Shown here: positions 12,419 to 29,827 of the stretch, in pieces
How positions within the stretch are numbered: the stretch's first letter is position 1
Layout: each line of letters begins with the position of its first letter
Made by a program: the position numbers and the translations under genes
Notes under the pieces: generated by a model
What the model was told of the DNA's origin: nothing
The model's database searches: none
What the model saw: only the letters and a program-made list of their open reading frames with translations
DNA from: a bacterium
GTDB taxonomy: Bacteria > Zixibacteria > MSB-5A5 > GN15 > FEB-12
Reading direction: 5' to 3'
NCBI GenBank assembly: GCA_030605565.1
Contig: JAUWIB010000040.1
Span: forward strand, 1-39,886
Length of the DNA stretch: 39,886 nucleotides

Positions 12419-14764
12419 TTACGAGAGATCCTTGCGTCGCCTGGCGAATGATACGACACAGCCAAGCAGCACGATCGTGGTGCCGATCCATACCAGGAGA
12501 ATCATCGGCTTCCTGGTAATATCAAGCACCAGCACTTCCGGCGTGCTGGTGTCCAGTCCGTGGATATCGAGAAGCACAGCACCCTGATCGGCCAGGATCT
12601 TTTCTATGTTTATCGGCATGGCGCCGGCCGAGTCGAGGCAAGCAGGTTCGCTGATGTACCTGGGATTGCCAAACTCGTCGGTGGTCATAATCAGCGCGGG
12701 TGTGATGGTGTCGATGGCGCCTTCATGCTCCACCTCAAGATGTGTTGCTATCCGGAGATCCTCGGTCGACCCTCCGTGGTTGCCCATATCGAAGCCCAGG
12801 AAGGTCAGGCGGTAGCCCTGTAGTTCGTGCGTTTCACCTTTGGCGATCTGCAGTCCGCCGCTTTCCGCTGACTGAATCTGCTGTGGAGCCAGGTAGAGAT
12901 CATTCAGCCAGTATCGTTCGATATGCGGCCGCTTCATAAGCCCGTTCAGCCGGCGTGAGTAGTACAGTTGCGGACGGACCTCGTGAGAACCATCACCATC
13001 ATCAAGGGTAAGGATCAGTTCGTTCTTTGGGTGCATGATGTCGTTGGCCATGCCAAGGTATTCCAACCGCACACCATAGCTGCTGCCGCCCTCTTCAGTA
13101 GTCAGTATCAATTGCTCGCTGGTGGCGAACGCTGACGACGCCAGCACGCCGATCACCATAATACCGAATCCAAAATGGGTCAGATGCCCGGCCATAGAAC
13201 GCCACCCGTTGGGGAGGCTGCCGAAAGCCGCGGTGAGATTGGTAACGGCGGCCATGGACGCCATGGAGAACAACATCAGATAGAGCGGTTCACGCACGCC
13301 GACCAGCAGGGAGATCACCAGACCACCGGCCAGCGCTGCGAATGAAGGAATCAGTCGACCCCACCAGTCAGGTTTCATCAGGTACATCACCATCCCCGTG
13401 GCGACCAGGCCAAAGACCAGCACAAATGCCAGAGAGGCCGTGGATAACAGGAAGAACAGACCTACGCCGATGACCGTTACGGTCAGGGCCACGAATACCA
13501 GGCGCATCGGCCACGACGATAGCCGGAAGCTATCCTGTCGGGTCAGCGGTGAAATAGCCAGAATCAACGAGTAGACTATGGCTAAGGGCAAGGCGAAATC
13601 ATTGTAGGTGGTGACATCAGCCGCGCGTGGTTCATCAGTGAAAACCGATGTAAGAAACGGTAGCGAACTCCAGAAGAGCACAATCATAGCGAAGGCAAAC
13701 AGTAGCGCGGTGGCCGCCACCAGAGTGAAGTCCCGTCCGTAGAAGTTGTAGTCAATCGGGACGTTGCCAATCGACCGCAGTCTCGGCACAAAGAGAGCCA
13801 CCGTCAGCACCACAAATGCAATCATGAATCCGATGAGATAGACATTCGTACCCAAGTTGACAAAACTGTGTACCGAGAAATCGGCCAGCACGCCGCTACG
13901 TGTGAGAAAAGTGCCATAGACTACTAAAATGAAGGTTAGCGCACTCAATAACAGGTTCGTTTTGCGCAAGGCTCCATTGGTTCTCTTCTCCAGAAGCAAA
14001 CCGTGAATCAGAGCAAGTGAAGCGAACCACGGAATCAGCGATGAATTCTCCACCGGATCCCAGGCCCAGTAACCGCCCCAGCCGAGGGTCTTGTAAGCCC
14101 AATATGCTCCCAGGATATTTCCCATGCCGATCATCAGAGCCGACACCGCCACCCAGGGGAAGACGCGCTTGACCCAGTCGGAATAATCGTTGATGATCAG
14201 GGCCGCCATGGCCAGGGCGAACGGTACACCAGTCGCGGCATACCCAACGAATATCACCGGCGGGTGGATCACCATCCACGGATCCTGCAAGAGTGGATTC
14301 AGACCGTAGCCATCAGCCGGGACGACATCGGCCAATGCGAAAGGCGAGAGACGGACAAGGATGAACAGGAAGAAGAGATTGACCAGCGAAAAGACGACCA
14401 TCCCCCAGTCTTTATAAATGCCGCCCCGCTTGATGATTACATAGCCGAATAAGGCGCTGAAGAACAGCCACAACAGGTAGGTGCCTTCCTGACCGGCCCA
14501 CAGCGACGATAGCAAATAGAAGAATTCGAGCGAGCGATCCGAATACTCGGCGACATATTTGATAGCGAAGTTGTGGCTGAAGATAAGATAGAATAGATAC
14601 GCCACAGCCAGGCCGACGCAAGCGACGAAAGTGTGATAGCTCTTTCGCGCCAGACCTTCAAACGAGTGATGGCCGCGCGCCATACGGTAGAAAGCGAATC
14701 CAACCAGCAGGTTCAGGCCAAAGGCGAACAGTACCAGCAGATCTCCGGGGGAATTCCAGCTCAT
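12419..14764 (-). CDS. ccmF: Cytochrome c haem lyase subunit CcmF
   Basis: This 781-residue polytopic membrane protein belongs to the HCCA/CcmF family. CcmF takes haem from holo-CcmE and joins it to CxxCH motifs in System I. The tryptophan-rich WWD motif is intact at about residues 227-246 (LGWGGYWAWDPVENSSLIPW). Conserved family histidines are visible around H167 (WMVIHPPV), H254 (LALIHGLL) and H527/H530 (MAGHLTHFG). It is longer than the roughly 650 residues of the E. coli protein, and the extra length lies mostly in the region from about 550 to 745 before the last membrane helix, predicted to be periplasmic. It starts three bases after the ccmE stop region, so the two are co-transcribed. 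Confidence 0.96.
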   Translation of the reverse strand: MSWNSPGDLLVLFAFGLNLLVGFAFYRMARGHHSFEGLARKSYHTFVACVGLAVAYLFYLIFSHNFAIKYVAEYSDRSLEFFYLLSSLWAGQEGTYLLWLFFSALFGYVIIKRGGIYKDWGMVVFSLVNLFFLFILVRLSPFALADVVPADGYGLNPLLQDPWMVIHPPVIFVGYAATGVPFALAMAALIINDYSDWVKRVFPWVAVSALMIGMGNILGAYWAYKTLGWGGYWAWDPVENSSLIPWFASLALIHGLLLEKRTNGALRKTNLLLSALTFILVVYGTFLTRSGVLADFSVHSFVNLGTNVYLIGFMIAFVVLTVALFVPRLRSIGNVPIDYNFYGRDFTLVAATALLFAFAMIVLFWSSLPFLTSVFTDEPRAADVTTYNDFALPLAIVYSLILAISPLTRQDSFRLSSWPMRLVFVALTVTVIGVGLFFLLSTASLAFVLVFGLVATGMVMYLMKPDWWGRLIPSFAALAGGLVISLLVGVREPLYLMLFSMASMAAVTNLTAAFGSLPNGWRSMAGHLTHFGFGIMVIGVLASSAFATSEQLILTTEEGGSSYGVRLEYLGMANDIMHPKNELILTLDDGDGSHEVRPQLYYSRRLNGLMKRPHIERYWLNDLYLAPQQIQSAESGGLQIAKGETHELQGYRLTFLGFDMGNHGGSTEDLRIATHLEVEHEGAIDTITPALIMTTDEFGNPRYISEPACLDSAGAMPINIEKILADQGAVLLDIHGLDTSTPEVLVLDITRKPMILLVWIGTTIVLLGCVVSFARRRKDLS

Positions 14765-14767
14765 CAG

Positions 14768-15205
14768 CTATGCTCCGGCTACTCTGGCACTGTCGGGATG
14801 TTTTTGCGGGTCCTGGTATTCGCCGCCCTCACCCTGGTACTTGGAAGGGCACTTGACCAGCATCTGGTCGGCCTGAAAGACGCCATCGGCGCTCCTGCCC
14901 TTCAGCACGACCGAGGTGGCTTGTTCGAAATTGCCCGGCACCACACCATAGTACACTACCGGCAGACGGACGGCGGTAGCTTTGTTGGGCGCTTCGACGT
15001 CAAAAATGGCGAACTCCAGACGCCGTTCGTCGGTGTTAAAGTTCACGCGGTCGAAATCGATTTCGCCCATAACCTGCACCATGCGTTCCGACGTCCGGGC
15101 CTGTTCGATCGACACGTACTGAATGGTCGTCTTCATGAATGAATACGCGCCCCAAACAACAAACAGAACGATTATCAAGCCCCCGATAATATACTTGGCG
15201 CTCAA
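14768..15205 (-). CDS. ccmE: Haem chaperone CcmE with CxxxY motif
   Basis: This is a 145-residue CcmE: one N-terminal membrane anchor (residues 3-24) and a periplasmic OB-fold domain. CcmE carries haem from CcmC to CcmF. The classical haem-binding His is replaced: the site reads LVKCPSKYQG, with Cys119 and Tyr123, the CxxxY variant known from Desulfovibrio and archaea and linked to the System I* form of maturation. The start is TTG, overlapping the TGA of ccmD by two bases, with GAGGAAAAG upstream inside ccmD. The C-terminal tail is short and contains one His (H136) that is not in the motif position. Confidence 0.94.
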   Translation of the reverse strand: MSAKYIIGGLIIVLFVVWGAYSFMKTTIQYVSIEQARTSERMVQVMGEIDFDRVNFNTDERRLEFAIFDVEAPNKATAVRLPVVYYGVVPGNFEQATSVVLKGRSADGVFQADQMLVKCPSKYQGEGGEYQDPQKHPDSARVAGA

Positions 15206-15315: not shown

Positions 15316-15975
15316 CTAACTCTCCACATCTTCACGGACGCGAACCAGACGGCCAACACGACCGGACAGGTTCAGCATCCAAAAATATAGTACGGTATAC
15401 AACGCCAGAGATGAGAAAAAGATCGTCCCAACTAACGGATCCATGGTGAATTTCATGCTGGAGTCGACAATCGAGTCCTCCGGGTGCAACGACGGCACCA
15501 TCCGCGGCAGCACAAAAATCAGAAAAGGCACGGTGACAAAAGCGAAAATCGAATAGACTCCCGACAACGCAGCCCGCCGGTCGGGATCCTGAACGGCTCC
15601 TCTGAGTGCGAAATAGGCGCCGTAGATCAGAAGCAACACGAACACCGAGGTCTGCCGAGGATCCCAGCTCCAGAACAACGATCCCCAGGCGATCCTGGCG
15701 AAAATAGAGCCGGTGACCGTCGCCAGCAGGCAGAAAACAAAACCGAGGAGGGCCGTCTCAACAGCGCGGTCATCGAATTCTATGCGACGGCTTCGCAGAT
15801 ATCGAATGGAGTAAACCATCGACATGGCAAAAGCCAGGACGCAAATCCACGCCTGCGGAATATGATAATAGAAAATCCGGCTCGACTCACCGATCTGTTG
15901 TTGCGGGGCCGGCGTGACGTAACTGGCGATAATCATCGCTGTCATGCCGACGAATAATAGAACTTTCCACCACAT
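15316..15975 (-). CDS. ccmC: Haem handling protein CcmC
   Basis: This 219-residue protein has six likely membrane helices and belongs to the same WWD family as CcmF. CcmC loads haem onto CcmE. The WWD motif is at about residues 97-113 (WGSLFWSWDPRQTS), and the two flanking axial-type histidines are visible, H38 (FYYHIPQAW) and H164 (SLHPEDS). It is co-transcribed with ccmD, whose ATG touches its stop. Unlike the usual gene order, a 334-base repeat-bearing gap separates it from ccmB, and a likely promoter lies within that gap. Confidence 0.95.
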   Translation of the reverse strand: MWWKVLLFVGMTAMIIASYVTPAPQQQIGESSRIFYYHIPQAWICVLAFAMSMVYSIRYLRSRRIEFDDRAVETALLGFVFCLLATVTGSIFARIAWGSLFWSWDPRQTSVFVLLLIYGAYFALRGAVQDPDRRAALSGVYSIFAFVTVPFLIFVLPRMVPSLHPEDSIVDSSMKFTMDPLVGTIFFSSLALYTVLYFWMLNLSGRVGRLVRVREDVES

Positions 15976-16309: not shown

Positions 16310-16993
16310 TCAATCCTGCCAAACGAACTTGAAAAGCAGCAGCGAGGCGGTGATCATCACCACGGCATAAGCGAACAAAAACTGAAGTTCAGCGAGAGCC
16401 TCACCCAGTCCGGAGCCGCCGAAGACTTTCTCCGTTGCGGCCACCAGTGCGATGAGTAGCGGCATCAGAATAGGGAACGACAACACCGCGAACAACGCTC
16501 CTTTCACCGAGGCCCGCGAGATGATCGCGGCCACCAAAGTTGTCGCACCGCTTAAACCGATTACGCCCAGTGCAAGGACCGGCAGGAAGGAAATGATATG
16601 TTCTGCGGGAGCGTCGGTGAAGATGAAGAAAAGGGGCGTCACCACCATCGTCATCGTCGTTAGCAAGCTGAAATTGAAAGTCAGTTTGCCTATGTAGACC
16701 GGGTCCGGATCGGCCATAAGTCGCAAGGGCAGAGCGGTGCCGGTTTCCTCCTCACGGATAAACACGTGGGCCAGTCCGGACATGGCCGAGAAGAAAATCA
16801 CTATCCAGAACAGCGCCGAGAGCAGCTTCGGAGACAGCCCACTTTGCCCCAACGAAAACGACACCACGGCCAGAGTTGTAATGGCGAACATCAGGATAGC
16901 GTTCAGAGCGTAGCGACTGCGCAACTCAAGGCGCATGTCCTTGGCGTATACGGCCAACGCTTTACTGACCAAGCCGGCACTGCGCGGTGGCAA
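16310..16993 (-). CDS. ccmB: Haem exporter membrane subunit CcmB
   Basis: This 227-residue protein with six likely membrane helices is the CcmB permease that pairs with CcmA and CcmC to release holo-CcmE using ATP. Family features include the N-terminal DMRLELRSRYALN, FWIVIFFSAMSGLAHVFIREEETG near residues 62-86 and LPLRLMADPDPVYIGK. The start is best placed at TTG 16993, which has GAGGAG seven bases upstream inside ccmA; the genes overlap by 32 bases, implying coupled translation. The usual ccmC is not next but 334 bases away. Confidence 0.93.
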   Translation of the reverse strand: MPPRSAGLVSKALAVYAKDMRLELRSRYALNAILMFAITTLAVVSFSLGQSGLSPKLLSALFWIVIFFSAMSGLAHVFIREEETGTALPLRLMADPDPVYIGKLTFNFSLLTTMTMVVTPLFFIFTDAPAEHIISFLPVLALGVIGLSGATTLVAAIISRASVKGALFAVLSFPILMPLLIALVAATEKVFGGSGLGEALAELQFLFAYAVVMITASLLLFKFVWQD

Positions 16994-17579
16994 GTTGGTA
17001 CTCCTCTTCTTCGTTAGTGGCGATGATCAGGATGCTGTCGGCGCGAAGCTGTTCCACCAGTTGGACCACGATCTTTTTTCCTTCGCGGTCGAGGTTGGAG
17101 GTTGGTTCATCGAGAAACAGATAAGCTGGGTTGCTCAAGAGGGCCAGGGCGTACTTGAGCCGTTGCTTCATGCCTGATGAAAACTCGGCTACCGGATCGA
17201 CACCTCGTCTCTCAAGGCCTACTTGCTGAAGGACGGCGTTGATCTGTTTGCCGGTGACATGGCCGCCGGATACGGTGATGAAGAACTTCAGATTTTCTTC
17301 AGCCGTTAATTGGTCATACAGATTAAGATAAGGCGACACGAAAGATACCAGTCGTCGTCGGGCGGCATCGTCCAGTTCGGTGTCACCCTCGGCGAAAGTG
17401 ACGCTGCCTTTCGTGGGTCGCTGCAACCCCAGCAAGGTCAGTATGAGGGTCGACTTGCCCGAGCCGTTGGGTCCGATCACGGCCAGCGAGTCGCCGGTGG
17501 TCAACTCAAAATTCAGGGCGGAGAAAAGCTTGCGCGCACCGAACCGCTTGGCCAGGTCTTTTGCCGTGAGTCGAAACAT
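16962..17579 (-). CDS. ccmA: ABC-transporter ATPase CcmA
   Basis: This 205-residue ATPase drives the CcmAB complex. It has a Walker A GPNGSGKST near residues 36-44, the signature FSSGMKQRLK, and a Walker B LFLDEPTSNLD. The length is typical of CcmA. ATG 17579 is chosen; a TTG three codons upstream (17588) is also possible, and neither has a clear ribosome site. The downstream ccmB begins inside its 3' end. The upstream gene, 70 bases away, encodes a cytochrome-complex membrane subunit. Confidence 0.93.
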   Translation of the reverse strand: MFRLTAKDLAKRFGARKLFSALNFELTTGDSLAVIGPNGSGKSTLILTLLGLQRPTKGSVTFAEGDTELDDAARRRLVSFVSPYLNLYDQLTAEENLKFFITVSGGHVTGKQINAVLQQVGLERRGVDPVAEFSSGMKQRLKYALALLSNPAYLFLDEPTSNLDREGKKIVVQLVEQLRADSILIIATNEEEEYQLATAQCRLGQ

Positions 17580-17649
17580 ATCGGCCAATTAGTCGGAAGA
17601 TGCAACCAATGCAAGCAAAAAGTACTGTGATAATGGTATCTAACGGGGT

Positions 17650-18666
17650 TCACCGGCGTCCGGCGAAGAAAAGCCTCAGCATGTATACTACAAGCCCGAT
17701 GGCCAGCAGAAAAAAGACCAGGAATAGAGCGAACACCGACCACTGCGGCAGCACCGGAATCGTGGACGGATCCCACATGCCATCCAAGCGCACCAGCCTA
17801 AGGACGTGACGCGCTGCAACCATGCCAAACATCGACGTGAACAACATGATCCCGGCAGGAAGGAACTTCTTTTTGAAAAAGAAATGAATGGACCCCAGTG
17901 ACAGAAAGAAAGCGATTGTCACTATCCAGATACCGCTCGTGCGCATGAACGGCAACAGGAAGTCGCCCAACATAAAGAGATACACCAACCCGGTCAGCAT
18001 CGCCATCACCATTCCGACCAGATAGGCGCGTCGCCCGGTTTCATATACGGCCGGGGTATCCCGGCCCAGCAGACCTACGAAGAAGCCTCCCACCATGAGC
18101 GCTCCGAAGATCGTGTGCAACCATCGATACAAATACGAGCCGACATCCGGATTGATGGCCCACCCACTCTGGGTCTGGAGGTAAAGCGTCCCCATGAGAA
18201 TCGGACGTTCCGCCATCGAGAATACGGAGCTATAGACGAACGAGACGTACAGTAACCCGACCACGGCAACGGCGAGGTAGGCGGGCAGCCGCTTGACAGC
18301 TTTGTCCGCGGAAAACGCTGCTCCGTAGAAGAAGTAGTAAGCGACTATTGCGGCCACGATTATCATCAGCCAGAACCAGCCCGAGACAATAGCGGCAGAA
18401 TAGACCAGACGATGGTAGGTCAGTTGCAGGAACAGAAGCGGCGCCACTCCAAAGGTCACCGCGCCCGCCATCACTGTCGGCAGAAGTCTAATATACTTCT
18501 TCACCGCCGGCTGTTGCCATTTGGCGTCCAATCGGCTGAGCAGCAGAACCATCGTGCCGCCGAATATGAAATTCATGGCGGCAAAGTGGACAGTAAGCGT
18601 CACCAGGTGCAGAATTGTTACTATCCACAAGGGGGCCGACAGGAAGTTATGATCCGGCAGGTTCAT
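17650..18666 (-). CDS. Polytopic membrane partner of the CydA-like cytochrome
   Basis: This 338-residue membrane protein has about eight to nine helices. It begins with FLSAPLWIVTILHLVTLTVHFAAMNFIFGG, where helix histidines and a GG pattern resemble the start of its upstream neighbour, a CydA-like protein. That suggests a distant paralogue rather than a CydB. Other features are a long helix pair near residues 60-110 and a final helix near 305-330. It overlaps the upstream gene by ATGA, so the two products are almost certainly made together and form a complex. I cannot assign a named family. A quinol-facing or haem-carrying membrane subunit is the likely role (inferred). Confidence 0.68.
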   Translation of the reverse strand: MNLPDHNFLSAPLWIVTILHLVTLTVHFAAMNFIFGGTMVLLLSRLDAKWQQPAVKKYIRLLPTVMAGAVTFGVAPLLFLQLTYHRLVYSAAIVSGWFWLMIIVAAIVAYYFFYGAAFSADKAVKRLPAYLAVAVVGLLYVSFVYSSVFSMAERPILMGTLYLQTQSGWAINPDVGSYLYRWLHTIFGALMVGGFFVGLLGRDTPAVYETGRRAYLVGMVMAMLTGLVYLFMLGDFLLPFMRTSGIWIVTIAFFLSLGSIHFFFKKKFLPAGIMLFTSMFGMVAARHVLRLVRLDGMWDPSTIPVLPQWSVFALFLVFFLLAIGLVVYMLRLFFAGRR

Positions 18667-20183
18667 GGCGTCTTGCTCTCCGCTTGTTCGGTCATGAATT
18701 GCAGGTACTCTATAAGGGCCTGTCGCTCGGCGTCGTCACCGGTAAAGGGCGGCATTTCCTCGGCGAAGTCCTCGGCCATGTCGAGAATGTCGTTGATTTC
18801 CTCAGGATCGAGCCCCAGCAAAGATTCCGACTTGTCGTTGTAACCGTAGAATTCGTGACACTTGCCGCAGCGAATATCGTAAACTTTGTGCCCAAGTTCG
18901 GCGCCCTCCAGGGCATACATGGCCTTTAGCGGCCCATGATCGACACGATTATATAAGTGCCCGGCGATCATAGCCGCCTCATTCTCTATTCCCAGAAACG
19001 GTGGCATGTTGCCCTTGAGGGCGTGAGCGCCTTTGATGATACCGGCTATGAATATCTCGTCGGTGCCGTCGAAGGCCGGTTTCAAAGGATGGTATCCATC
19101 GATAGTGTGACAACGACGACAAGCATGGCGTAACAGATCGGCGCCGTCGTCACCGGTCCGGAACACTATATATGGCAGCAGTCCATCCTCTCTGTAATTG
19201 TCCGCCATCGCCAGTGCCAGGCCGTTGCCATACATGTAGTCATAGATGACAAACGGCTTGCGGATCGATTCTCGGAACCACTCGAAGGAGCCAAACCAGG
19301 CCAGCCCCAACGCCATCATGACGACAGCCACGCCCAGTGAAACGTGGCGGCGCATCACCAAACCGAACAGCAGAAAGGCGATCATCAAGGCCATCCCGAA
19401 ACGCCAGGCGAAGCTCCAGGCATCCAGCGGCGTCGGCATCATCTCAATCGCTGTGGTGGTGACCGCGCCGGGGATGCCCTGCCAGTACCACCAGAGAGAG
19501 GGAAGGATGATAGCCATTCCGATAAGTCCCCAGGCGGCATTATAACGCACCGTGCTCGCTTTGAAGTCGCTTCTTGGATATAGCGAAATCACCAGCGTGC
19601 TGTACAGTCCGGCCAGCATGACGCAGACGCCGGTGCGCAGCACCAGCGACGACCAGAAGGTGTCATTGAAAAAGCCGTCGAAGAAACTGCCGGTGGTCAG
19701 CCAGTCGCCGGGTGTCAACATGAACGACAGGATGCCGTTGATGATAAACAGCGACATCCAGGCGGCGCCGAAGTAGATCCATCCGACAACCAGGTGGTTG
19801 CGAGGTGTCATCTTGTCCCAACCGTACAGATAGATGATGGCGGCCAGGATTTCGATCAGGAAGAAGCACCACTCTGACGCCCACGCCCAAACGAAATGGT
19901 GGATCAGCGCCTCGGTGGCGGCCGGGTTCAACAGACCGATTATGAACCAGATGGCAACACCGGTCAGCGCCCCGAACACCAGCGTCACCAGCACGAAGAA
20001 CTTGCTGAGCTTTTTAAGAAAGTTCAGTTTCAGAGTGTCGCTGTTCCGGCGGGCAAAACTCTCGGCCACGACCAGGTAAAGGCCGCCGCCGATGGCGAAA
20101 TGCGATACGAAGACATGCACGACAGCGACAATCGCCATCAACAGGCCATAACCGACCGATATGTCCCAGAATGGATAGTCCAT
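18663..20183 (-). CDS. CydA-like membrane cytochrome fused to two c-type haem domains
   Basis: This is a 506-residue protein. The first 310 residues carry about eight to nine membrane helices resembling cytochrome bd subunit I: histidines in VVHVFVSHFAIGGG, a WASEWCFFLIEILAAIIYLYGW segment where CydA has its acidic helix, followed by NHLVVGWIYFGAAWMSLFIING. The soluble C-terminus has two haem c sites, CRRCH at about 355 and CGKCH at about 439, each followed by a likely axial Met (MPPF at about 393 and 477). So it is probably a quinol- or donor-linked cytochrome of the CydA superfamily with two covalent haems. ATG 20183 is chosen; GTG 20192 is an alternative. It lies upstream of ccmA-F, whose products would attach its haems. 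Whether it reduces oxygen is not decided by sequence. Confidence 0.78.
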   Translation of the reverse strand: MDYPFWDISVGYGLLMAIVAVVHVFVSHFAIGGGLYLVVAESFARRNSDTLKLNFLKKLSKFFVLVTLVFGALTGVAIWFIIGLLNPAATEALIHHFVWAWASEWCFFLIEILAAIIYLYGWDKMTPRNHLVVGWIYFGAAWMSLFIINGILSFMLTPGDWLTTGSFFDGFFNDTFWSSLVLRTGVCVMLAGLYSTLVISLYPRSDFKASTVRYNAAWGLIGMAIILPSLWWYWQGIPGAVTTTAIEMMPTPLDAWSFAWRFGMALMIAFLLFGLVMRRHVSLGVAVVMMALGLAWFGSFEWFRESIRKPFVIYDYMYGNGLALAMADNYREDGLLPYIVFRTGDDGADLLRHACRRCHTIDGYHPLKPAFDGTDEIFIAGIIKGAHALKGNMPPFLGIENEAAMIAGHLYNRVDHGPLKAMYALEGAELGHKVYDIRCGKCHEFYGYNDKSESLLGLDPEEINDILDMAEDFAEEMPPFTGDDAERQALIEYLQFMTEQAESKTP

Positions 20184-20289
20184 TATTGTCACTAATTGGG
20201 TCGGCCGGCTTCTGGTTCAGCATCTACCGACCGGCAGTACTAATGCATGGCGAACCGGCGAGTTGTTGTCAACTAATTTGTCAGAAGAA

Positions 20290-21399
20290 TCAGGACTCGT
20301 TTTCGTGCCAACAGCGAGCCAGCACCCGCAGCCAGTTCTCACGGCACAATTTGGTCAGGGATCCTTCGTCGAAACCGGTGCGGCCCAGGGCTGCCACCAG
20401 CTTTGGCAGCCCCGCGACATCGCCAAGTTCCTTCGGAATCGGGGCACCGTCGAAATCACTGCCGAAGGCTACATGTTCAACGCCGATCCGGTCGGCGATG
20501 TAGGTTATCTGATGCACGATGGCGTCCATCGGTGTGTCCGGATCCAGTTGACCGTCACCACGAAGATCGTTCTTGAAAAAACTGACACCCACGACCCCAT
20601 CGGATTCACCGATAGCGTCGAGTTGCTTGTCAGTCAGGTTGCGCGCAGAACCGCACAGAGCATGAGCCGCGCTGTGCGAAACTATCAGCGGCGCGCTGGT
20701 GATCGCTGCCACATCCCAGAACCCTTTCTCATTAAGGTGGGCCAGATCAAGCATGATACCAAGGCGGTTACACTCGCGCACAAGCTCCCTGCCGGCGTCG
20801 GTGAGGCCGGGACCGACATCCGGCGACGAGGGATACCTGAACGGCACGCCGCACCCGAAAGCATTCGGGCGACTCCAGCAAATACCCAGCGAGCGCAGAC
20901 CGCGGTCATAATACTGTAGCAGGTTAGTTAGATCGGAAGCTATCGTCTCGGCGCCCTCGAAGTGCAGCACGACTGCCAGCACGCTGTTTCCCAAACACTC
21001 TCTGATCTCATCGGTAGAGCGCGCGAGTTGCATTTGACCCTGAGATCGATCGATCAGGTTGAACAGGCTTGTCGTTAGTTTCTCGGTCGTATCACGAGCC
21101 GTGTCGAAATCAACGGGCGCTGCCAGCTTGACGTAGTATCCGTTGTCAGTGAGCGTTACGTCCTCTTTCGGCGGACCTTTCAACCAATCTTCGTTGGTGA
21201 CGAAGACGGCGAACATACCACCACCGAATCCGCCGGCTCTGGCTCGCGACAGATCGATATGCCCTTTGTCGCTTCGTTCAAAGAACGAACGTCCCCCTCC
21301 GCGCTCAGGGTAATAGAGGTTCATAACGGTGTCGTTGTGACCGTCGAAGATGAATGGAGTCGGCGCCGTAGCTATTTCCTTTTCACTTTCTGTTTGCAC
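20290..21399 (-). CDS. M19-family (renal type) dipeptidase
   Basis: This 369-residue zinc dipeptidase-like protein is of the M19 family, which cleaves dipeptides. All expected metal ligands are seen: H21 and D23 in FDGHNDT, E148 in LHFEGAE, H221 in LDLAHLN, H242 in VSHSAAH, and the late Asp in GSDFDGAP (about 315). Length fits the family. There is no signal peptide, so it may be cytosolic. The start is a GTG at 21399 that overlaps the upstream gene by 28 bases, and no ATG exists before the first motif. The upstream M1-like gene and this one are in the same unit. Confidence 0.93.
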   Translation of the reverse strand: MQTESEKEIATAPTPFIFDGHNDTVMNLYYPERGGGRSFFERSDKGHIDLSRARAGGFGGGMFAVFVTNEDWLKGPPKEDVTLTDNGYYVKLAAPVDFDTARDTTEKLTTSLFNLIDRSQGQMQLARSTDEIRECLGNSVLAVVLHFEGAETIASDLTNLLQYYDRGLRSLGICWSRPNAFGCGVPFRYPSSPDVGPGLTDAGRELVRECNRLGIMLDLAHLNEKGFWDVAAITSAPLIVSHSAAHALCGSARNLTDKQLDAIGESDGVVGVSFFKNDLRGDGQLDPDTPMDAIVHQITYIADRIGVEHVAFGSDFDGAPIPKELGDVAGLPKLVAALGRTGFDEGSLTKLCRENWLRVLARCWHENES

Positions 21400-23594
21400 A
21401 GCACGCTGTAGAACTCATTGAAAATGAGTTCCTTGGGTTCGTTGCTGAACGGTCCGAGTTGGAAAGTGTCGTGCAAGCCCTCTATCGGTTCACGGAGAAA
21501 ATGGGAGCTTCCATCGACCCCGACAACCCGCATAACCACCGGCATCCTGAATCCGGCATCGACATCTCGAGTCAACACTTCGCCTTCGACATAGTACCCG
21601 TCGTCCTTATTGACAACACTGTACTCTACGCGGTAGTCGGGGAGGTTGCGGCCGTAAAGCCAGTGTTTGAAGAACCAGTCCAGCGGTTCGCCATAATGCT
21701 TCTCGGCCAGTTTAACAATGTCGTCGTTGGTGAAACTCTTCATGCTGGTAGTCAGCGCCAGTTCGTGCATGAACTTCATGAAAGCACGGTCCGAACCAGT
21801 TTCAACATCGTACATAAGCAGGCGCAGCATGTGCAACACCCACAGGCCCTTGTTCGACCGGATTTCCGTTTTGGCGCGACTGCCGACGGCCAGCGGTGAA
21901 TCCCGCTTGAGGTCATCGGTGCGATAGACGGAGTCACGTCGGTGTAATAGATGGGAGTAGCCGGTGGAACCGAGGGCATCCTGGAGAAACAAGACGGCGG
22001 CGTACTCTGGGGCGGCTTCGGTGATCCACGTTTCACGATCGGTGGCCGGCCGCATCAGGGAACCGAACCACTGTCGCGCCGCCTGCCGTCCGGCCACGGA
22101 GTGAAAACCGCCCAGTGCGTGCATGGCGCCCTCGGTAACACATGCGATCTGCGGTATGCACAAGATGCCAGGCATGCTATAGGTCCCGGCCGGGCCGACA
22201 TACATCGAAAACGCCCCGATCGGCGGACCAAACTGCGAGGCCATGTAGTTGAATGCCTGTGTCGAAACTTCCTGGTACATCTTATGAGGGATAAAACAGT
22301 CCGAATACTTTTTGTCCATCAGTTCCCAATCCAGGAAGTTGAGCGACAGGCCGATGTCGGAAGGGATCACTACGGTGTCGAGACCGGAGGCATAGCATTG
22401 GAAAAAGAACTTGCGGTACAGGTTCTGCGGCGTAACGCTAAATGTCTGCCGTCGGCCGTTCAGCTTTTCCACCGGTCCGGCGCCGGGCATGAAGTAGTTG
22501 TAGTCCTTGGGTGTTATGAAGGTGAAAGCGTGCGGAGTGACCTGAGGGTCCTCCACCCAGGGCATAGCATGATCGAACTGCTTGCCGTGGTACCATAGGG
22601 TAAACGTCATGGTATCGCCCTGGTGACGATAGTGCGGCAGGGCCAGACCAATAAAGGAAAAATCATTGCGACGATGGTAGTCCAGAGGTTGACCGTCGTA
22701 ATATATCGAGTCGGTCTTGAGGTTGGGATGCAGAAACAGCGAGATAAACCTGATGCTGTTGACATTGATTTGTACTTGGATCGTTGTCTGAGCTGCTCGG
22801 AGAAACTTCCCGTCAAGGCCGGACATTTCTATGTCGGCCTGGCGGTCGAGAATGGTGGTGGGATAAGCGATTTCCGACATCCGGGCATCATCGTAGACAT
22901 TGCTCTCTTGTCTTTGAAATGCGGCGCCGACGGTGGCGACAACGTCTCCGCCCTGATACTCATAGGCAACCCTTACTTCCTCCGGTCGGCTCGGATCGAA
23001 AGTGAATGTATACCGATTGAAGTCGATCCAGAAATAGCCGTCAGCCCGCCGTTGGTACAGTGACCTTAACAACTGAAAGTAGTTGTCATAGGTATGATGG
23101 AGGGTTGGCCTGAAGAATATTTCCCCTTGCGGTTTCTTGGCGCCCAGATTGAAATGCTTCCACTTCAACTCGGCAGTGTCGGTGGTAAATCTCTCTTTCA
23201 GTTTCAGATCGAAATCATCCCCGATCCGAATGAAACAAGTCTCAAAGTCCTCATTGACGATACTGTCACGGGCCACCATCAAGAGCGATTGTCGTTCCAG
23301 ATGTGAGGGAATATCGATCTCGGCGTGGCCCTTGCCGATAAAAATGGCCGTCGTAGGGCGGTCGTCAACGTAGCGAAGCAGATAGATAATACCTTCGTGG
23401 AAGGTGACCGTCGCTACGTCCTTCTCATATACGAAATCGCTGACGGTGAGTACTTCGCACGCGTGGTTCATAAGATCCTCGGAGAGGACCTTGTAATCGG
23501 TTTTCATCTTCTTGGCGAATTCGGAATCAGATGCGGTCACCATGCCGGTCAGCGCCACTATCATCAATGCTGTAAACATTATCCTACAAAACAT
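21372..23594 (-). CDS. Secreted M1-peptidase-like protein lacking the zinc motif
   Basis: This 740-residue exported protein has a signal peptide (MFCRIMFTALMIVALTGMVT) and GGGAG before the ATG. It has the overall plan of M1 aminopeptidases: a beta-rich N-terminal part, then a helical domain with QWFGSLMRP (family text QWWGNLVTP), WITEAAPEYAA (family WLNEGFAxY) and a C-terminal segment with LWVLHMLR and WLYGRNLPDY. But the zinc site is gone: where HExxH is expected, residues 502-507 read GRQAAR, and the GAMEN-type substrate motif is absent too. The second-site Glu of TEAAPEY is kept. It is therefore probably a non-catalytic relative, perhaps a binding or scaffold protein. The M19 dipeptidase follows directly. 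Confidence 0.82.
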   Translation of the reverse strand: MFCRIMFTALMIVALTGMVTASDSEFAKKMKTDYKVLSEDLMNHACEVLTVSDFVYEKDVATVTFHEGIIYLLRYVDDRPTTAIFIGKGHAEIDIPSHLERQSLLMVARDSIVNEDFETCFIRIGDDFDLKLKERFTTDTAELKWKHFNLGAKKPQGEIFFRPTLHHTYDNYFQLLRSLYQRRADGYFWIDFNRYTFTFDPSRPEEVRVAYEYQGGDVVATVGAAFQRQESNVYDDARMSEIAYPTTILDRQADIEMSGLDGKFLRAAQTTIQVQINVNSIRFISLFLHPNLKTDSIYYDGQPLDYHRRNDFSFIGLALPHYRHQGDTMTFTLWYHGKQFDHAMPWVEDPQVTPHAFTFITPKDYNYFMPGAGPVEKLNGRRQTFSVTPQNLYRKFFFQCYASGLDTVVIPSDIGLSLNFLDWELMDKKYSDCFIPHKMYQEVSTQAFNYMASQFGPPIGAFSMYVGPAGTYSMPGILCIPQIACVTEGAMHALGGFHSVAGRQAARQWFGSLMRPATDRETWITEAAPEYAAVLFLQDALGSTGYSHLLHRRDSVYRTDDLKRDSPLAVGSRAKTEIRSNKGLWVLHMLRLLMYDVETGSDRAFMKFMHELALTTSMKSFTNDDIVKLAEKHYGEPLDWFFKHWLYGRNLPDYRVEYSVVNKDDGYYVEGEVLTRDVDAGFRMPVVMRVVGVDGSSHFLREPIEGLHDTFQLGPFSNEPKELIFNEFYSVLCKQKVKRK

Positions 23595-29113: not shown

Positions 29114-29152
29114 GAGTATTGAATCGGATTGGCGATTGACTTAGGAGATTCG

Positions 29153-29827
29153 ATGGATATCCCTTCGGGGAGCCCGACCAAAAAGAGGATTTCGGAATCG
29201 ACGATTCACCGGCTCTCTCGGTATTTCCGTACCTTGTCTCTTTTGGAGAAAGAGAACTTCGAGACCGTTTCGTCCAAGGAACTGGCTAAACGAGAAAAAC
29301 TTACGCCGGCTCAGGTGCGCAAAGACCTTTCGTTCTTCGGCTCTTTCGGTACCCGTGGACTGGGTTATCCGGTAGCTGAGCTCAAGGCCAAGGTGTCCAG
29401 GATTCTCGGCATCGATCGGATCTGGCGGGTCGCGTTGATCGGAGTGGGTAATATCGGTTCGGCGATGGTCAGCTACAAGGAGTTCATCAAGCAGGGTTTC
29501 CATATTGTTAAGCTCTTCGATAATGATCAGCGGAAAATCGGCTCGAACCATAAAGGCATAATAGTCTCGGATATCAAGAACCTGCGGACTGAACTACAAG
29601 ATGACCGCATAGAAATGGTTATTGTTGCGGTACCGGCAACGGTAGCACAGTATATCGTGGACGTCGTCGTCAAGGCGGAGGTGAAGGCGATCCTGAATTT
29701 CGCCCCAATCAACCTGAAGGTGCCGCCTGGCGTTCATGTGCGCAACGAGAATATGGCAATGGAGCTTGAGTATCTCTCTTTTGCGATGGTGAACCACCAT
29801 TCACCGAAAGGAATCGGCAAAGCCTAA
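29153..29827 (+). CDS. rex: Redox-sensing repressor Rex
   Basis: This is a 224-residue Rex. It senses the NADH/NAD+ ratio and represses respiratory or fermentative genes when NAD+ is abundant. The N-terminal winged helix contains SSKELAKREKLTPAQVRKDL and FGTRGLGYPV. The Rossmann domain begins with VALIGVGNIGSAM near residues 94-106 and ends with the domain-swapped helix (MELEYLSFAMVNH). ATG 29153 is chosen for its AGGAG. Its own promoter overlaps a Rex operator, so autoregulation is likely. No other Rex site was seen in the window, including near the cytochrome cluster. Confidence 0.95.
   Translation: MDIPSGSPTKKRISESTIHRLSRYFRTLSLLEKENFETVSSKELAKREKLTPAQVRKDLSFFGSFGTRGLGYPVAELKAKVSRILGIDRIWRVALIGVGNIGSAMVSYKEFIKQGFHIVKLFDNDQRKIGSNHKGIIVSDIKNLRTELQDDRIEMVIVAVPATVAQYIVDVVVKAEVKAILNFAPINLKVPPGVHVRNENMAMELEYLSFAMVNHHSPKGIGKA

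Follow-up and report, generated by a model that had tools for sequence, protein, structure and literature searches.

The window analysed here, the whole stretch of DNA at its length of 39,886 nucleotides, carries two adjoining membrane-protein genes on the reverse strand. The gene for subunit I (18663..20183, (-)) encodes a protein of 506 residues and opens with an ATG at 20183, with a possible GTG start lying three codons upstream at 20192. The gene for subunit II (17650..18666, (-)) encodes 338 residues, and its start overlaps the subunit I stop (ATGA). Subunit I was assigned as a bd-superfamily subunit I with two fused haem c domains from Pfam matches (PF01654 and PF13442), Foldseek and profile alignment with CydA. 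An earlier note on this DNA had called its N-terminal half CydA-like, and the HMM check agrees, as PF01654 (cytochrome bd subunit I) matches residues 15-223 with 44.5 bits against a cut-off of 26.2. The C-terminal part was said to carry two CxxCH sites with matching MPPF motifs, and both are there in the sequence. Haem c domain 1 (18924..19151, (-)) has its CxxCH at residues 355-359 (C355xxCH359) and MPPF at 393, and haem c domain 2 (18684..18911, (-)) has the corresponding motifs at 439-443 (C439xxCH443) and 477, so that the methionine (M393 and M477) of each site stands 34 residues past its motif's histidine. Across 26 close homologues, neither site shows any change in its Cys, His and Met residues, and domain 2 is present in 30/30 two-haem homologues. 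Shuffled versions of the protein gave 0.0012 CxxCH per sequence and never two. With a CxxCH and a downstream Met in each domain, the C-terminus has the features of class I cytochrome c, PF13442 matching domain 2 above threshold (E 3.6e-12) and PF00034 falling just sub-threshold over domain 1.

To compare folds, an AlphaFold2 model of subunit I was built from seven native sequences, giving a confidence of about 90 pLDDT in most membrane helices and mostly below 50 pLDDT in the haem c domains, which were modelled poorly. In a Foldseek search of the PDB, all seven matches under E 0.001 were bd subunit I chains (E 3.8e-6 to 8.1e-4; TM-score (target) 0.49-0.62), with the Mycobacterium smegmatis bd II enzyme as the top hit. 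The predicted structure thus upholds the likeness to CydA, and together with the CydA profile evidence it rules out an unrelated cytochrome family. The membrane part (residues 1-310; 19254..20183, (-)) contains eight helices in the AlphaFold2 model and is placed N-out/C-out by the positive-inside rule, with two to five Lys and Arg residues in every cytoplasmic loop and none in each periplasmic loop between helices. This topology would put the haem c tail in the periplasm, which is where the Ccm system attaches haem.

For the haem ligands, we used a joint alignment of the subunit I family with 31 canonical CydA sequences, E. coli included, and give canonical positions in E. coli numbering. The profile of the family matches that of the 31 canonical CydA sequences with an E of 1.4e-13, the local match covering residues 13-233 only. 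Here, H23, E104, E111 and H130 map to H19, E99, E107 and H126 of E. coli CydA, respectively. The histidines that had been noticed near the first helix are H23 (the H19 haem ligand) and H28, an extra histidine at the position of E. coli P24 (20100..20117, (-)), and they are conserved in 100% and 93% of 41 homologues. Likewise, the acidic helix remarked on earlier corresponds to E104 and E111 (19851..19874, (-)), which keep a spacing of seven and are conserved in 95% and 98% of the same homologues, as in CydA; a one-residue insertion (Leu101) distinguishes this helix in E. coli from that in Geobacillus (PMC6853902). Further along, E305-S-I-R308-K309-P310 (19254..19271, (-)) aligns with E445-Y-G-R448-Q449-P450, the haem ligand motif GRQP, with E305 conserved in 100% and R308 and K309 in 98% of the 41. 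Because the local profile match stops at residue 233, it is the global and joint alignments that place E305; PF01654 lends help here, as it hits this region in register in six relatives from the class. Subunit I therefore retains the active-site set H19, E99, E107, E445 and R448 as H23, E104, E111, E305 and R308, each 95-100% conserved. In the E. coli and Geobacillus enzymes, the residues at these positions are ligands or close neighbours of the two active-site haems, of which the one held by E445 in E. coli is the nearer to the periplasm (PMC6853902; PMC8585947).

The earlier proposal to align the haem b ligands and quinol loop thus gave a divided answer, as both active-site haem positions are kept but CydA's helix 9, quinol loop (Q-loop) and haem b558 histidine have no counterpart. 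The periplasmic loop between helices 6 and 7 has about 18 residues (238-255), against more than 100 in E. coli, and lacks the K252/E257 region. For the b558 ligand H186, the joint alignment and a list of all histidines show no His in helix 5 and none at or near the H186 position, beside which R183 is conserved in 98%; the counterpart of the other b558 ligand, M393 of E. coli, falls in the F262/M264 region, which is not conserved. With the Q-loop reduced and no helix 5 histidine, electron entry by quinol via b558 is very unlikely, and the direct alternative would be through the fused c haems.

Subunit II, predicted to have nine helices and without haem c, had been regarded as a possibly paralogous membrane subunit. 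Searches with its sequence gave no match in Pfam, NCBIfam or the PDB, and a PDB search with the family profile was also empty. Nonetheless, the profiles of the two subunit families match each other with an E of 3.4e-12, and a Foldseek search with the subunit II model returns bd subunits, both CydB and CydA chains, so the paralogy is confirmed: subunit II is distantly related to subunit I and folds like a bd subunit. Its sequence shows no similarity to that of CydB (E 0.26). Membrane subunits of alternative complex III appear as weak fold matches at ranks 15, 18 and 19, with bd subunits ranked higher. By profile alignment, H27 (18586..18588, (-)) occupies the H19/H23 haem ligand position and is found in 100% of 36 sequences, and H184 (18115..18117, (-)), found in 92% of the 36, is placed at E. 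coli H186, the b558 ligand, by a weak profile alignment (E 0.014). Moreover, R286-H287-V-L-R290 (17797..17811, (-)) pairs with R304-E305-S-I-R308 in the alignment with subunit I. Among distant relatives, H, E, Q, D and A all occur at position 287, and some lack H184. A haem may also be bound by subunit II itself. Nearly every locus long enough to show both genes has them side by side, with no match to the partner gene at the haem-less locus L040 or the divergent locus L047, and the enzyme comprises both genes, not subunit I alone.

The pair is followed in the window by cytochrome c maturation genes, as the earlier note had said: ccmA (16962..17588, (-); PF00005, with TIGR01189 just below cut-off), ccmB (16310..16993, (-); PF03379), ccmC (15316..15975, (-); PF01578, with TIGR01191 below cut-off), ccmE (14768..15205, (-); PF03100) and ccmF/nrfE (12419..14764, (-); PF01578 and PF16327, with TIGR03145 below cut-off). 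This arrangement is genus-local, however, and we rejected it as a trait of the family, having seen it just in the window and at the one same-genus locus examined (L096). The CcmE protein has CPSKYQ in place of the usual haem-binding histidine motif and is presumably a Cys-type CcmE (System I*); no ccmH gene was seen beside ccmE in the window. Directly upstream of the oxidase genes and in the same direction (20290-23594) are genes for an M19 membrane dipeptidase, also present at the same-genus locus, and a weakly M1-peptidase-like protein. About 9 kb from the oxidase genes, a Rex redox-sensing repressor (29129-29827; NCBIfam above cut-off) is a possible NADH-linked regulator of respiration. A conserved upstream gene of 144 residues in relatives, considered as a regulator, turned out to encode a GNAT acetyltransferase.

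The named close relatives of subunit I come from Candidatus Zixiibacteriota MAGs, one Myxococcota-labelled MAG and one Acidobacteriota MAG. In the tree, the family splits from canonical CydA with full support (100/100), and from the tree and loci its members have no, one, two or four haem c motifs. A second type within the family (L036, L037, L045 and L046) has one haem c domain on each of its CydA-like subunits. The four-motif form is a 740-residue relative of subunit I with four CxxCH (L035, 3-2222) from a genome (G012) that also holds a two-haem copy; with Gly at the E104 position, this protein may not reduce O2. One-haem versions occur on plasmids of the cultured strains Agrobacterium tumefaciens LN-1, Thermus thermophilus SNM1-7 and Methylosinus sp. 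C49, where the records name them 'cytochrome c' or 'c-type cytochrome' and the partner 'hypothetical protein' or 'cytochrome C'. In Methylosinus sp. C49 (L110, 7493-9718), the pair is followed by genes for a small c-type cytochrome, an ATP-binding protein and a response regulator, and the last two also trail the Agrobacterium pair, where as in Methylosinus they are perhaps a two-component system. The small cytochrome and the regulator genes of Methylosinus are a candidate donor and a candidate regulator for the enzyme.

The source genome is a 3.39 Mb MAG of 96% completeness. It has a single PF01654 match and no other CydA match, and no haem-copper oxidase was found by PF00115 in this 96% complete genome; control searches gave their expected matches. 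The subunit I/II pair is thus the sole O2 reductase detected, with the reservation that a 96%-complete MAG can miss an oxidase. One cluster (L089, 3081-5911) encodes a Rieske protein, a bc-type cytochrome b and a multihaem cytochrome c, the last with a C-terminal membrane helix and in place of the usual cytochrome c1. No single-domain soluble cytochrome c donor was found in the genome by PF00034. Another operon (L090, 1890-6685) encodes heterodisulfide reductase-like and ferredoxin-like proteins, both named by eye, and an NrfD protein (621 residues) fused to a multihaem CxxCH tail.

Across the class, the two-haem type is present in 41 of 132 genomes, with G006 and G010 counted from fragments only. 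A bc-type cytochrome b was detected in 31/41 of the two-haem genomes versus 45/91 of the others (p 0.007), leaving 10/41 without one, and canonical CydA in 9/41 versus 41/91 (p 0.012), these p-values overstating independence because the genomes are related and some are incomplete. Both differences are read only as consistent with an enzyme fed from a bc-type complex. A haem-copper oxidase is also found in 31/41, and eight two-haem genomes have neither this nor canonical CydA, among them the source genome and G054 and G015 (97-100% complete).

Taking these observations together, we propose, with a probability of about three in four, that the two genes encode a two-subunit cytochrome c:O2 oxidoreductase of the bd superfamily, fed from a bc-type complex via the c haems of subunit I. 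The computations themselves establish the fold and homology, the conserved ligand positions, the haem c motifs, the losses at the quinol and b558 sites, the paralogy of the partner and the genome content; O2 as the substrate, cytochrome c as the donor, the electron route, the proton uptake and the haem type are inferred. In the proposed mechanism, the bc-type complex would pass quinol electrons to a periplasmic c-type cytochrome. The C-terminal haem c domains of subunit I would accept them from there, in place of the lost quinol site and haem b558, and deliver them to the high-spin haem on the periplasmic side (ligated by E305, as by E445 in E. coli). Electrons would then move on to the other active-site haem, which H23 ligates, and there O2 would be reduced with protons drawn from the cytoplasm past E104 and E111, while subunit II would take the place of CydB. 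The overall chain would thus run from quinol to the bc-type complex, cytochrome c, the pair and O2. The earlier idea of a bd-superfamily member drawing electrons from cytochromes survives in this proposal. In the literature examined, we found no demonstration of O2 reduction by any member of the family.

The best surviving alternative, though an improbable one, is that the same two-haem site, likewise fed by cytochrome c, serves in the protective reduction of another ligand such as nitric oxide or peroxide. A precedent is the quinol peroxidase activity of E. coli cytochrome bd (PMC4899803), and a haem-copper oxidase accompanies the two-haem type in three-quarters of its carriers. Against this, no other O2 reductase was detected in the source genome and seven other carriers, and no conserved NO- or peroxide-linked gene was seen beside the pair in the loci examined. 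Still less probable is a role akin to that of alternative complex III, in which the pair would oxidise quinol at an undiscovered site and pass the electrons out to cytochrome c through the c haems. Such a role has been considered for the bd-like Nitrospina enzymes that lack a Q-loop (PMC3578206), and it would suit the weak fold likeness of subunit II to alternative complex III membrane subunits; those matches are outranked by bd subunits, however, the O2-site residues are retained, and the genome already has a bc-type complex while lacking any other detected O2 reductase. A third reading takes the protein for a membrane cytochrome that scavenges O2 or senses redox state and has no part in respiration, its host being in essence an anaerobe. 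This would fit the anaerobe-type membrane redox operon in the genome and the ATP-binding protein and response regulator genes of Agrobacterium and Methylosinus, but it is similarly hard to credit, as the bc-type complex and co-directional Ccm genes suit a respiratory chain and as scavenging and respiration share their chemistry and differ in purpose only.

The cytochrome c:O2 oxidoreductase is the preferred reading, in which the source organism most likely uses the pair as its terminal cytochrome c oxidase. Since it is the only O2 reductase found in the genome, O2 respiration in this organism probably runs through a little-studied branch of the bd family. More tentatively, and at slightly worse than even odds, this lineage would combine a bc-type complex and a bd-superfamily enzyme into a full cytochrome c-based O2 chain without a haem-copper oxidase; in this chain the two fused c domains would deliver electrons straight to the high-spin haem on the periplasmic side, and CydB would have given way to a CydA paralogue that binds haem (H27, H184 and H287), so that a c oxidase would have evolved within the fold of the bd quinol oxidases. 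The bd oxidases with solved structures matched here are, we take it, quinol oxidases. If our reading is true, the bd fold, like the haem-copper fold, would serve both donors, and the scoring of genomes for O2 respiration would change, as even the records for Thermus, Agrobacterium and Methylosinus label the pair 'cytochrome c' and 'hypothetical protein'. Organisms like the source bacterium would otherwise be wrongly scored as lacking O2 respiration or as having a quinol oxidase. The enzyme type would be testable in its cultured hosts.

Among known systems, the window protein belongs with the bd-superfamily subunit I proteins by homology, fold and active-site residues. It shares with canonical CydAB the fold, the two active-site haem ligand positions, the acidic helix 3 and the GRQP-like motif. 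On the other hand, it is not a canonical quinol oxidase (qOR), in that it lacks the Q-loop, the b558 ligands, helix 9 and a CydB partner, and has instead C-terminal haem c domains and a CydA-like partner without sequence similarity to CydB. The superfamily was reportedly divided into three families by Murali and co-workers (2021), and citing papers name these qOR, OR-C and OR-N (PMC10839748; PMC12342949). OR-N enzymes likely use cytochrome c as donor, although experimental confirmation is lacking (PMC10839748), and this agrees with the remark in the earlier note that few such members are characterised. Like the window pair, the OR-N CydAA' enzymes of Nitrospirota and Nitrospinota consist of a CydA pair, lack quinol-binding residues and have a likely cytochrome c donor (PMC10839748; PMC3578206), whereas the Nitrospina member has 14 helices, three of them replacing the Q-loop (PMC3578206), and the window protein has eight, to which two haem c domains are fused. 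The plasmid-borne relatives of Thermus, Agrobacterium and Methylosinus share with the window pair the two-gene layout, H23, E104, E305xxRKP and the first haem c site, and differ in having one haem c domain rather than two. OR-C, as reportedly described by Murali, Gennis and Hemp in 2021 (ISME J 15:3534), is said to comprise CydA homologues without a quinol site, with haem c motifs and with paired paralogous subunits, presumed to use cytochrome c. Our literature search yielded no detailed description of OR-C, and the window protein, which resembles it in its fused haem c sites and missing quinol site, is a probable OR-C member. What lies at this locus is a real and conserved bd-superfamily enzyme of two subunits, one of them fused to a two-haem cytochrome c entry, and of a kind known in outline.
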